In this document: one piece after another, positions 46,604 to 56,276 of the stretch
How positions within the stretch are numbered: position 1 is the first letter of the stretch
How the letters are laid out: each line of letters starts with the position of its first letter
Position numbers and translations under genes: made by a program
NCBI RefSeq assembly: GCF_027925025.1
Contig: NZ_AP027058.1
Span: 62,001-126,000, forward strand
DNA from: Limnohabitans sp. MORI2
GTDB lineage: Bacteria > Pseudomonadota > Gammaproteobacteria > Burkholderiales > Burkholderiaceae_C
DNA: 64,000 nucleotides
Reading direction: 5' to 3'
The notes under the pieces: generated by a model
The model's database searches: none
Seen by the model: the letters and a program-made list of their open reading frames with translations, nothing else
Told to the model about the DNA's origin: nothing

Positions 46604-47437
46604 ATGGCAGGCTGGCTCGCACAACTTCAAATCGACTACACGCACAACGCGTCACGCACCACGGCGAAGTTTTCGCACAGTGGACCTTTGCGTGTGTTGC
46701 AGAGCCTCTACCCCGAAGGGGATGCGGTGTGCCACAACGTGTTGGTACATCCGCCCAGTGGTTTGGTAGGTGGGGATACCTTAGACATCACGTTGAACGT
46801 CGATGCGCACGCACATGCCTTGCTCACCACGCCTGGCGCCACACGTTTTTACAGAAGCGAGCAAGGTCTCGCGACACAACAAGTCAAAGCCCATGTGGGC
46901 GACGGTGCACGCCTAGAGTGGCTGCCGCTGGAAACCATTGCGTATAACGGCTGCCACGGTTTGAACCATGCGGTGTTTGACCTAGCCCCCACAGCCGAGA
47001 TGATGGCGTGGGACATCACTGCGCTTGGACTCCCGAATGCCAACTTGCCGTTTGAGAGCGGGCAGTTGCAGCAACACATGGAAATGTCGGGCGTGTGGCT
47101 TGAGCGTGGTTTGTTAGATGCGCAAGATACCCGTTTGATGGATGGCCCCTTGGGCTTGGCCAAGCACCGTTGCATGGCGACTTTGGTGCTGGCGTGTGGG
47201 TCTGATTTGTTGCGTGAACGGCGCGATCTGGCGTTGGCCTTGGCGCGTGAGTTGACTGAAGTTGCGCCTGCAGGCCTGGTGGCGGGTGTGACATCGCCGC
47301 ATCCACGCGTGGTGGTGTTGCGCACCTTGTCGCCCCTGGTGGAGCCTGCGCAGACGTTGTTGCGTGGGGTTTGGGCGGCTTGGCGTCGGGGCCTATGGGG
47401 CATGTCGAATGTGCCGCCTCGAATTTGGTCCATGTAG
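46604..47437 (+). CDS. ureD: Urease accessory protein UreD (UreH)
   Basis: The 277-residue chaperone matches UreD: SHSGPLRVLQSLYPEG, HNVLVHPPSGLVGGDTLDIT, TTPGATRFYRSEQGLA and GARLEWLPLETIAYNGC. With UreF and UreG it opens the apo-urease for nickel loading. It is the only ure gene here on the left side of the locus: the other ure genes begin 6.3 kb further on, beyond an oppositely transcribed urtABCDE block. The start ATG 46604 follows AGGG weakly. Confidence 0.95.
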   Translation: MAGWLAQLQIDYTHNASRTTAKFSHSGPLRVLQSLYPEGDAVCHNVLVHPPSGLVGGDTLDITLNVDAHAHALLTTPGATRFYRSEQGLATQQVKAHVGDGARLEWLPLETIAYNGCHGLNHAVFDLAPTAEMMAWDITALGLPNANLPFESGQLQQHMEMSGVWLERGLLDAQDTRLMDGPLGLAKHRCMATLVLACGSDLLRERRDLALALARELTEVAPAGLVAGVTSPHPRVVVLRTLSPLVEPAQTLLRGVWAAWRRGLWGMSNVPPRIWSM

Positions 47438-47459
47438 TTTCTGCTTTTTGCTGGGCTCG

Positions 47460-47537
47460 CTGGGGGTAGAGGACTTGGGCAGGTTCCTCATGCTGGGGTA
47501 CCAGAAATCGTCACCTGCCCAAGCCCTCTACCCCCAG
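47460..47537. repeat. Hairpin element 1 (25-28-25): constant core, unique arms
   Basis: Left arm 47460-47484 and right arm 47513-47537, both 25 nt, are inverted copies with one mismatch (A47473 opposite C47524). The core between them is 47485-47512 (28 nt). The core contains CTGG-GGTA-CCAG, a small inner palindrome. The same core, reversed, is at 47609-47636 in element 2, while the arms of the two elements are unrelated. The left arm starts CTGGGGGTAGAGG and ends GGGCAGGT. It lies 22 bases beyond the ureD stop. No known transposon end, attC or REP type was recognised. Confidence 0.9.
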
Positions 47538-47557
47538 ACTGCGGCTGGCAGTTTTTT
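47538..47557 (+). terminator. Possible ureD terminator between the two hairpin elements
   Basis: A short stem ACTGC (47538-47542) / GCAGT (47548-47552) with loop GGCTG is followed by six T residues (47552-47557). Its strength is modest because the stem is five base pairs. It starts immediately after element 1, whose own long stem would also end transcription of ureD. Confidence 0.55.
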
Positions 47558-47583
47558 AGGGTGACATTTTTCTTCGACGACCG

Positions 47584-47661
47584 ATCAGGTGATGCGGGCG
47601 CGGCGGCTGACGATTTCTGGTACCCCAGCATGAGGAAGCCGCCGCACCCGCATCACCTGAT
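47584..47661. repeat. Hairpin element 2 (25-28-25): same core inverted, different arms
   Basis: Left arm 47584-47608 and right arm 47637-47661, each 25 nt, are inverted copies with one mismatch (C47599 opposite A47646). The core 47609-47636 is the exact reverse complement of the core of element 1, 28 of 28. The arms start ATCAGGTGATGCGGG and end GCGGCGGCT and share no sequence with element 1. A 46-nt spacer separates the two. It ends 52 bases before the urtE stop. Confidence 0.9.
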
Positions 47662-47713
47662 TTCCTCCGGCGAGAAACCTTCACGCACGGAAAAACTTCA
47701 GGCGCTAAACAAC

Positions 47714-48427
47714 TTAAATCGCCACCAACTGACGAACGTTGTCCCGCTGCATGTCTGAGCCCATGCCGCGTGCAATGACTTCACCGCGTTCCATCACCAA
47801 ATAGTCATCCGCCAACTCTTCGGCAAAGTCGTAATACTGCTCGCACAGCAAAATTGCCATGTCGCCACGACTGGCCAACATGCGAATCACGCGGCCAATG
47901 TCTTTGATGATGCTGGGTTGAATGCCCTCGGTGGGCTCATCCAACACCAACAACTTTGGGCCAGACGCCAAGGCCCGTGCAATCGCCAGTTGCTGCTGTT
48001 GCCCGCCTGACAAATCGCCGCCACGGCGATGCAGCATTTGCTTCAGCACAGGAAACAACTCAAACAACTCAGCAGGTATGTCTGTGCCTGCAGGCTGAGT
48101 GGCCAGCCCCATGCGCAAGTTGTCTTCTACGGTGAGTCGCGCAAAGATTTCGCGTCCCTGTGGTACGTAGCCAATGCCGGCACGCGCACGTTCGTACGGT
48201 GCGGCACGTTCAATCGACGCGCCGTTGAAGGTGATGCTGCCATCGCGAATCGGCACAGCCCCCATGAGCGACTTGAGCAGCGTGGTCTTGCCCACGCCGT
48301 TGCGCCCGAGCAGCACCGTGATACGACCCAAGTTCGCTTCAAAACTCACGTCACGCAGGATGTGCGAGCCGCCGTAGAACTGGTTGATGTTTGAAACCTG
48401 AAGTAAAGGCATGTCGTGTGTTTGCAT
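47714..48427 (-). CDS. urtE: Urea ABC transporter ATP-binding protein UrtE
   Basis: The 237-residue ABC ATPase has Walker A GRNGVGKTTLLKSLM, Q-loop FARLTVEDNLRMG, signature LSGGQQQQLAIARAL, Walker B LLVLDEPTEGIQPS and the H-loop region ILLCEQYYDFAEELADDYLV. The QYYDFA phrase and TEGIQPSIIKDIGRVIR are specific for the UrtE branch of branched-chain-type transporters. It is the last gene of the urtABCDE operon; the start is ATG 48427 (or ATG 48412). Confidence 0.95.
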   Translation of the reverse strand: MQTHDMPLLQVSNINQFYGGSHILRDVSFEANLGRITVLLGRNGVGKTTLLKSLMGAVPIRDGSITFNGASIERAAPYERARAGIGYVPQGREIFARLTVEDNLRMGLATQPAGTDIPAELFELFPVLKQMLHRRGGDLSGGQQQQLAIARALASGPKLLVLDEPTEGIQPSIIKDIGRVIRMLASRGDMAILLCEQYYDFAEELADDYLVMERGEVIARGMGSDMQRDNVRQLVAI

Positions 48428-54534: not shown

Positions 54535-56276
54535 TGGCAACCATCGGCAAACGCGCTTACGCAGAGATGTTTGGCCCCACCGTGGGCGACCGCCTGCGCT
54601 TGGCAGATACCAACTTGGTGGTGGAAGTCGAACAAGATTTCACACTCAAAGCGGGCGGCTACGGTGAAGAGGTGAAGTTCGGCGGCGGCAAAACCATCCG
54701 CGATGGCATGGCGCAATCGCAGCGCACACGTGACGGCGCAGGCACAGGGCCACAAGCGGGCGGCGCGGTGGACACCGTGATGACCAATGCCCTCATCATT
54801 GACCACTGGGGCATTGTCAAAGCCGACATTGGCTTGAAGGGCGGTCGCATCGTGGCCATTGGCAAAGCGGGCAACCCCGATACACAACCGGGCGTGGACA
54901 TCGTCATTGGCCCAGGCACCGAGGTGATCAGCTGCGAAGGCAACATCGTCACTGCGGGGGGTGTGGACACGCACATCCATTTCATCGCACCGCAGCAAAT
55001 TGAAGAAGCGTTGACGAGCGGTGTGACCACTATGCTTGGTGGCGGCACAGGCCCAGCTACTGGCACCTTTGCCACCACTTGCACACCTGGCGCTTGGAAT
55101 ATCGAACGCATGTTGCAAGCGGCGGATGCATTTCCGATGAACCTCGGCTTCTTGGGCAAAGGCAATGCCGCTCTGCCCGATTCGCTGCACGAGCAGATCA
55201 ACGCAGGCGCGATTGGCCTAAAGCTGCACGAAGACTGGGGGACCACGCCCGCCGCGATTGACAACTGCTTGAGCGTGGCCGAGGCCACCGACACGCAGGT
55301 GGCCATCCACACCGACACGCTCAACGAATCGGGTTTTGTGGAAGACACGGTGGCCGCCTTCAAAGGTCGCACCATCCACACCTTTCACACCGAAGGTGCA
55401 GGCGGTGGCCATGCGCCCGATATTTTGAAAGTGGTGGGCGAGGCCAATGTGTTGCCCAGCTCGACAAACCCGACGCGTCCGTACACCGTGAACACGCTCG
55501 ACGAGCATGTGGACATGCTCATGGTGTGTCACCACCTCGACCCCGCCATTGCCGAAGACTTGGCCTTTGCCGAAAGCCGCATTCGCCGCGAGACGATTGC
55601 CGCCGAAGACATCTTGCATGACCTCGGTGCCATCAGCATGATGAGCAGCGACAGCCAAGCCATGGGCCGTGTGGGTGAGGTGATCATTCGCACATGGCAA
55701 ACCGCGCACAAGATGAAAGCGCAACGCGGTGCGCTACCAGGCGACACGGATCGTCATGACAACGCGCGTGTCAAACGCTACATCGCCAAGTACACCATCA
55801 ATCCATCGATTGCCCACGGCATCAGCCACGAAGTCGGCAGTGTAGAAGTGGGCAAGTGGGCCGACTTGGTGGTGTGGAAGCCCGCATTCTTTGGCATCAA
55901 GCCCAGCATCATTTTGAAAGGTGGCTTCATCGCCATGGCGGCGATGGGCGACCCCAACGCGTCCATTCCTACACCGCAGCCCGTGCACTACCGCCCCATG
56001 TTTGGAGCGTATGGCGGCGCGTTGCACCGTGGTTCGCTCACGTTTGTGTCGCAAGCGGGCATGGCAGCGGGCATCGGACAGAAGTTTGGTTTGAATAAAA
56101 CCTTGAGTGCCGTGAAGAACATCAGAAGCGTGGGCAAACGTGACATGATTCACAACGACTATGCGCCACGCATGGAAGTGGATGCCCAAACCTATGCGGT
56201 GCGGGCGGATGGCAATCTGCTCACCTGCGAACCTGCGCTGAGCTTGCCCATGACACAACGTTACTTCTTGTTCTAA
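54534..56276 (+). CDS. ureC: Urease alpha (catalytic) subunit
   Basis: The 580-residue subunit hydrolyses urea to ammonia and carbamate with a di-nickel site. The carbamylated lysine is Lys230 in [12 protein letters not shown]; nickel ligands appear in [13 protein letters not shown] and in [10 protein letters not shown] and [15 protein letters not shown]. The catalytic flap carries His333/His334 in [23 protein letters not shown] 54534 follows AAAGGAAG and overlaps the ureB stop by one base; a GTG one codon before is an alternative. The alpha subunit is about 10-13 residues longer than the usual 567-570. Confidence 0.98.

Follow-up and report, generated by a model that had tools for sequence, protein, structure and literature searches.

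The question raised by this locus is what kind of element keeps its centre constant while the arms on either side, which pair with each other, differ from one copy to the next. The locus lies in the window, by which we mean the whole 64,000-nucleotide stretch of Limnohabitans sp. MORI2 DNA that was analysed.

Two facing hairpins and their family

To the left of the locus is a plus-strand gene (46604..47437) without an NCBIfam match, which by eye we take to be ureD, and to the right, on the minus strand, is urtE of a urea ABC transporter (47714..48427; TIGR03410, 343.9 bits). Hairpin A (47460..47537, plus strand) has a 25-bp stem formed by arms at 47460-47484 and 47513-47537 that are complementary at 24 of 25 positions, around a 28-nt core (47485..47512, plus strand) consisting of TCCTCATG, the tip CTGGGGTACCAG and AAATCGTC. 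Hairpin B (47584..47661, minus strand) has its own 25-bp stem, with arms at 47584-47608 and 47637-47661 that are also 24/25 complementary, and its core (47609..47636, minus strand) is the exact reverse complement of that of A at 28 of 28 positions. The two elements face each other, 46 nt apart. An earlier note on this DNA had described two 25-28-25 hairpins of this form, with a single mismatch in each that becomes a G-U pair on the minus strand, and all of these details were confirmed. A is named here after its TCCTCATG...AAATCGTC strand; as discussed below, it is the opposite strand that appears to fold.

When the region 47450-47670 was folded as RNA the z scores were -9.3 for the plus strand and -10.6 for the minus strand, with none of 200 shuffles as good, and each hairpin on each strand, folded as DNA, bettered 200 of 200 shuffles. 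There is no T run directly after either window stem. The RNA fold does contain a small hairpin followed by a T run just past A (47538-47556), which is absent from the list produced by the terminator scan; the sole site found by that scan, which is blind to loops of more than 8 nt, is outside the hairpins. No Rfam 15 family matched the hairpins at gathering score, either in the window or in a search of 47300-47800 at a relaxed threshold, where the sub-threshold matches were mostly to miRNA models and far under their cut-offs. Elsewhere in the window, Rfam 5_ureB_sRNA matched the minus strand at 54725-55008 (95.4 bits against a cut-off of 40).

The sequences immediately outside the stems were compared by eye. 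The left flank of A (47445..47459, plus strand), TTTTTGCTGGGCTCG, is shared by many copies, which we call class A, and it appears as GCTGAGCTCGCT in another genus (L270); the right flank of class A copies is ACTGCGGC (47538..47545, plus strand). The outer flank of B (47662..47679, minus strand) carries the motif CTCCGG of the other common class, and a stretch similar to this flank is kept at a hairpin-free site in L181.

The earlier note had proposed a search for further cores, and this search found that the core is not limited to the window. With up to three mismatches the 28-nt core occurs 12 times in the window genome, and a 21-nt core pattern gave 14 exact matches in this 2.65-Mb genome plus one match with three mismatches, against none for a reversed, non-complemented control pattern. 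With one mismatch allowed, the pattern was present in 5 of the 61 genomes of the genus, the window genome counted. A covariance model, R1, built from 30 of the first 39 elements, found 19 copies in the window genome and matched 22 of the 61 genus genomes, with up to 26 matches in one of them; the other 39, many of them incomplete and all searched with strict filters, gave no match. R1 scored A at 94.8 bits (E 2.9e-20) and B at 96.0 bits (E 1.5e-20), both being members of its training set. A broader model, R2, matched 4 of 300 genomes of the order, all from one family, and in that family 70 of 399 genomes, belonging to 40 of 141 genera. Many of the genomes compared are incomplete, and orthology was judged from flanking genes and alignment. 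As the finder and the models were derived from the first copies, the fixed letters of the finder patterns prove nothing. We conclude that hairpins A and B are members of a large family of short repeats of hairpin form, present in freshwater bacteria and in bacteria related to them. No published description of such a family was recognised in listings of the open-access literature searched.

Loop, stem and folding strand

The earlier note had taken the core to be identical between elements. This holds in the window genome and close genomes; elsewhere in the genus the mini-hairpin at its centre varies and it is mainly TCCTCATG and AAATCGTC that persist. Outside the close relatives these two loop sides mostly stay, and between them there is usually a small hairpin, which differs from genome to genome and from locus to locus (for example CTGGAGTACCAG, CTGTTACAG, ATGGGTACAT and CGCAAGCTTG), 71% of the cells of the tip helix being paired as aligned. 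The loop is 25-28 nt long in 175 of 201 elements. One loop-internal pair covaries, being C-G in 180 elements, T-A in 18 and something else in 3, where the finder pattern had admitted only C or T at the 5' letter. On the opposite strand the loop sides read GACGATTT and CATGAGGA, and we infer that they can form two tandem G.A motifs around the covarying pair; in some copies Watson-Crick pairs take the place of the outer tandem.

Pairing in the first 39 elements was high over 25 positions and then dropped. Over 201 copies the stem was exactly 25 bp long in 67 and 24-26 bp long in 128, with a range of 15-37. In other genera the arms are again self-complementary and near 25 bp, the length being 24-26 bp in 37 of 74 elements and ranging from 17 to 31. 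The stem letters are unconserved, the stem ends variable and the centre kept, both in an alignment of 30 of the first 39 elements and in a comparison of 33 of 117 elements with diverse tips. Four shifted-register elements were left out of the first alignment, as well as of the covariation analysis, R1 and the first mismatch count, and five near-duplicates were also omitted from it. The claim that the arms of different elements are unrelated mostly stands, with the exceptions that loci are alike in the inner 6-7 bp, left arms are rich in G and the arms at orthologous loci resemble each other. We also noted that stem position 18 from the core frequently carries a C.A or A.C mismatch (paired in 20 of 39 elements of the first set, and not Watson-Crick in 33 of 117), which could be a bulge that is recognised or an old change common to these copies.

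The two arms change together. Within the first set 253 of 870 cells were changed on both sides of the stem, giving a covariation score of 0.713 compared with 0.151 after shuffling (0 of 500 shuffles), with two of five measures less extreme (3/500 and 36/500 shuffles), and sliding the partner abolished the signal. In the set with diverse tips 258 of 792 cells were double changes (0 of 500 shuffles), the two less extreme measures here giving 0/500 and 9/500; relatedness was uncontrolled in all of these shuffles.

The mismatches that occur in the stems are strongly polarised. Read on the TCCTCATG strand, the first set contained 52 A.C or C.A mismatches against 9 G.T or T.G (24 others). When unique events were counted over 46 arm clusters, one of the 118 elements having been dropped, the numbers were 118 against 12 (p about 5e-23; 42 others), and for 55 elements from other genera that are unlike the first set, kept from 74, they were 42 against 2 (p 1e-10; 14 others). 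Were there no strand asymmetry the two classes would be expected to be equal. As A.C and C.A become G.T or G.U on the opposite strand, it is the fold of the opposite strand that seems to be kept. The window stems have one mismatch each, of the majority polarity in A and the minority polarity in B, the polarities being opposite because the elements face each other; this pair does not by itself display the bias.

Copies that lie inside genes separate the folding strand from the transcribed one. For 30 of 49 in-frame copies, near-duplicates and those with low coding scores having been dropped, the polarity was 24:2 where the mRNA carries the named strand (19 copies) and 13:0 where it carries the other strand (11 copies), with 7 other mismatches. 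The polarity is therefore the same for either mRNA strand, so that the folding strand is set by the element and not by the host transcript. This result favours single-stranded DNA as the folded form, and the polarity could also stem from an RNA made by the element itself.

Facing pairs, occupied sites and candidate enzymes

Among the matches listed (150 for R1, and 104 for R2 with repeats from the genus left out except for G728), all neighbours no more than 400 nt apart are arranged face to face (41 of 41 for the genus, 19 of 19 for the second list), and 30-139 nt separate them except for one pair at 228 nt. Singleton hairpins also occur. It can be seen in a uvrA-type gene of G488 that a whole pair is present in three copies, which are alike including the spacer and have different flanks, and dnaE2 of G560 contains two near-identical copies of one element.

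Many copies are within coding sequence, 49 of 201 elements lying in frames that are open for 300 nt on both sides. According to the best NCBIfam matches leuS, hrpA, formate dehydrogenase alpha, uvrA and the error-prone DNA polymerase gene dnaE2 contain in-frame hairpins, the hrpA and formate dehydrogenase matches being to partial sequences and under the curated cut-off; the products of uvrA in L076, leuS in L077, dgt and pyrC were named by eye. Long uvrA-type genes of two other genera hold facing pairs. Two single open frames, L248:1842-8831 and L249:727-7485 (2329 and 2252 aa), each score like two UvrA units, with three hairpin pairs present in them. One further pair separates the genes for homoserine kinase and DNA polymerase I, which are divergent.

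Comparison of orthologous sites revealed filled, empty and partial states. At the formate dehydrogenase site, where both anchors were found in 11 genomes (of 14 loci), seven genomes have 102-141 nt with the whole hairpin and both arms, two have 9 nt, one has 18 nt and one (G071) has 42 nt resembling the right arm, all of these lengths being multiples of 3. In hrpA the element is present in 9 of 13 aligned genomes, and its stems differ by compensating changes inside coding sequence. The leuS element is present in 1 of 15 genomes, and two others (G065 and G031) lack core and left arm and have a piece that resembles the right arm. The ureD-urtE gap, in the 19 of 24 loci shown, contains A on its own, A together with part of B, short pieces, or nothing. 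Clean empty sites are without either arm. On the evidence of these states, whole hairpins arrive and pieces seem to be lost. No target-site duplication was seen by eye in the one clean filled/empty comparison. In the partial states at leuS and formate dehydrogenase it is the right arm that is kept, not the left, and the ureD-urtE gap of L175 likewise keeps an outer piece of the right arm and not the left arm.

These features can be set beside those of known repeats. REPINs are inverted doublets of REP sequences that form hairpins and are linked to RAYT; they have set spacings, are non-autonomous and commonly show compensatory changes, as described in PMC3116915, and TnpA-REP binds REPs strand-specifically as single-stranded DNA according to PMC8266576. 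Our family resembles REPINs in that its short repeats come as inverted pairs, each of the 60 near neighbours in the match lists facing its partner. It differs in that each half of a pair is a complete hairpin, with a free stem of about 25 bp and a conserved loop, whereas REPINs have conserved ends and a variable spacer, and in that no RAYT gene flanked by the hairpin was found among 27 Y1 loci.

The GTAG/CGTC REPs described in PMC3733652 are mostly head-to-head dimers in many small families, and are found in frame in uvrA, dnaE2, polymerase I, RNA helicases and tRNA synthetases; they include CGTC families listed there without known transposase, and have stems of 5-13 bp (8-9 for CGTC) and mostly short loops. 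The main text of that paper makes no mention of Acidovorax, Comamona-, Polaromonas, Rhodoferax or Burkholderi-. Head-to-head pairing and in-frame copies in similar gene classes are common to these REPs and our family, and their AT/AT stem ends and CCTC variant tag resemble the CCTCAT...AT of our core. By eye, AT at the loop is preceded by CCTC, one of the listed variants of CGTC, and the loop finishes with CGTC, with neither at the base of the long stem, and no GTAG tag was noticed beside the long stems. The stems of about 25 bp (24-26 in the 128 of 201 copies noted above) and the structured loop are differences. The family thus behaves like REPs but has a long free stem, a structured loop and no clear tag or linked transposase, and we therefore regard it as REP/REPIN-like rather than as a member.

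Rickettsia palindromic elements insert in frame into genes that likely encode working proteins, and RPE-4 and RPE-6 are classed among the CGTC REPs (PMC3733652). Likened by description, our family is similar in being palindromic and in frame within genes. We know of no conserved-loop, free-stem design among these elements. Integron attC sites are single-strand hairpins with variable self-complementary arms and one active strand, and have conserved ends (R'/R'') and a variable centre. Our family does the reverse, keeping the centre and varying the stem ends, and unlike MITEs it is without conserved terminal repeats, the G674 units described below being the exception. The earlier note had argued that the hairpins fit neither ordinary terminators, nor attC sites, nor MITEs, and for the family as a whole we agree. 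An intrinsic terminator was rejected as there is no T run directly after the window stems and copies are present inside genes. Intrastrand triplex repeats (PMC4666352) were considered for the G-rich arms, and no link was shown.

Which enzyme might act on such hairpins? A single Y1 (RAYT-type) transposase is present in the window genome; the palindromes on either side of it are AATTAATTGGGG, not members of the hairpin family. A Y1 gene was found in 21 of 22 genus genomes with the element, the one without a match (G077) being 70% complete, compared with 26 of 39 without it (Fisher p 0.01, relatedness uncontrolled); there are thus 26 genomes that have Y1 and lack the element. None of the 27 Y1 loci had a hairpin model match within about 1.5 kb, and at four of five larger Y1 loci there was one 4-5 kb off. 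A RAYT gene flanked by the hairpin itself was therefore sought at the Y1 loci and not found, leaving the weak co-occurrence and a link through terminal repeats in G674. In this genome 7 of 9 matches lie within palindromic units, about 140 nt long and terminated by GGGGTCAGA[GT]CAACATTAATT, and the RAYT gene is flanked by the GGGGTCAGA[GT]CAACATTAATT repeat too. Similar terminal repeats were not noticed round other copies, the pattern search having covered the Y1 and G674 loci. The units at L253, L269, L271 and L273 are nearly palindromic with the element in the middle, and the orientation of the core flips relative to small asymmetries at their ends. TIRYT units, as described in PMC3733652, are tyrosine transposase genes with terminal repeats, some of them GGGGWSAS, and the GGGGTCAG terminal repeats of the G674 units, resembling those round its RAYT gene, are comparable. 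The terminal repeat common to elements and gene in G674, together with GGGGWSAS at TIRYT units, makes a RAYT/TIRYT enzyme the best suspect, and we suspect that such a transposase acts on the family, at least on the G674-type subset.

A second long hairpin is located at a comparable position near the RAYT gene in the window genome, outside the window (L136:3471-3559), and in G066 (L138:3070-3158). Its loop, GCCATCACGGCGCGCCAGCGACGTTAA, is identical at 27 of 27 positions and its stems, about 31 bp long, are not the same in the two genomes, so that it is possibly another family with a conserved loop and free stem.

Taking these observations together, we consider it probable that the family is a REP/REPIN-like non-autonomous mobile palindrome pair whose folded single strand is recognised, most likely by a RAYT/TIRYT-type HUH transposase. 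A and B would then be one facing pair of a long-stemmed mobile palindrome. The strand with GACGATTT-tip-CATGAGGA of each element would fold into a hairpin of about 25 bp, in which the loop side may form a conserved non-canonical helix of two tandem G.A motifs round a C-G pair, followed by a small variable tip. A factor, probably the HUH (Y1) tyrosine transposase acting on the folded strand, would read the loop, the strand and the rough stem length but not most stem letters, so that stems could drift, largely through G.T/G.U intermediates, and stay paired. The usual unit would be the facing pair plus its spacer, which would have entered protein linkers in frame as well as the spaces between genes. 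In this respect there is support for the suggestion of the earlier note, namely a dispersed and structured module that is apparently mobile, whose loop is recognisable and whose arms are variable and self-complementary.

Other readings and what the family means

A separate class of single-strand mobile palindrome with an enzyme of its own is a possibility that we hold to be rather unlikely. Its enzyme would read the structured loop at a set distance of about 25 bp, the distance serving as a ruler and the stem letters being free, and this enzyme, or hairpin-templated replication, would keep the arms equal and so allow spread into essential genes without loss of the fold. If this were true the element would be the mirror image of an attC site.

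It is unlikely that the hairpins are immobile today and that selection maintains them as fixed chromosomal sites where a nucleoid, gyrase or repair protein acts. Many sites are common to several species, and the loop and outer flanks have been kept while the stems changed, for which reasons the element looks old and constrained. However, its presence differs among relatives, partial copies exist, and the repeated occurrence of a pair within a single gene and the in-frame copies look like spread; there is also no R1 match in 39 of 61 genus genomes, subject to the incompleteness and strict filters already mentioned.

A structured RNA element in the neighbouring transcripts, such as a 3' UTR motif, a small RNA or a bidirectional terminator, seems to us quite unlikely. 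A terminator or 3'-UTR element was favoured at first because convergent genes flank the window pair and further copies. The gene contexts of 118 elements, for which orientation was assigned with a crude home-made codon score trained on the window and orthologous sites were counted repeatedly, are convergent (+-) in 42, ++ in 28, -- in 26, divergent (-+) in 11, +? in one and inside a called gene in 10. Thus 42 of 108 contexts that are not inside genes are convergent, often with the copy about 40-60 nt past a stop codon, and the strong RNA folds, the G.U-like polarity, the covarying loop pair and the small hairpin with its T run just after A (47538-47556), although absent from the terminator scan, would also fit. 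The same orientation table and the in-gene copies set this reading back, as copies are also found beside gene starts, between divergent genes and inside genes both ways. In addition, the polarity is independent of the direction of transcription, no Rfam family matched at gathering score, and the terminator scan, with its blindness to loops above 8 nt, listed a single site, outside the hairpins.

The earlier note had also suggested that arms are acquired at the insertion site. On such a model the core arrives and a second arm is copied from the target, or hairpin-templated copying equalises the arms, and we find this very improbable. The right-arm-like pieces at leuS in two relatives and at formate dehydrogenase in one looked like half-made hairpins, but the empty formate dehydrogenase sites (9 nt in two relatives) lack both arms, and acquisition from the target is not supported. 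We favour the explanation that the right-arm-only states are deletion remnants. Changes along a spanning forest linking 172 of 200 elements gave a mixed outcome for copying between arms. The closest pairs (no more than 2 differences) show 108 one-arm against 13 symmetric changes, 74 of the 108 being of the wobble type of the folding strand, and pairs with 4-6 differences show 77 symmetric against 40 one-arm changes, which fits single mutations that are compensated afterwards. Overall, though, symmetric transversions outnumber symmetric transitions (235 against 152), an excess that the wobble route does not predict and that leaves room for templated arm copying, and two tree edges between close G674 copies carry 4 symmetric changes and 1 one-arm change. 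Chance palindromes, or drifted recent copies of one palindrome, are refuted by the 14 core copies against 0 for the control, covariation that none of 500 shuffles matched and the presence of the family in 40 of 141 genera.

If the family is, as we think probable, a mobile palindrome pair recognised as a folded single strand, the identity of a mobile palindrome can reside in its loop and stem length rather than in the letters of the stem. Families of this sort would tend to escape programs that find repeats by conserved sequence, but a covariance model picked this one up in 40 of 141 genera. The polarity of mismatches provides a test, from sequence alone, of which strand folds in the cell, and can be used on other repeats. 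The in-frame copies in DNA-repair, helicase and tRNA-synthetase genes are a test bed for how proteins tolerate mobile linkers. Finally, the family reopens a question posed in 2013 (PMC3733652), namely how REP-like elements move when they have no transposase gene themselves.
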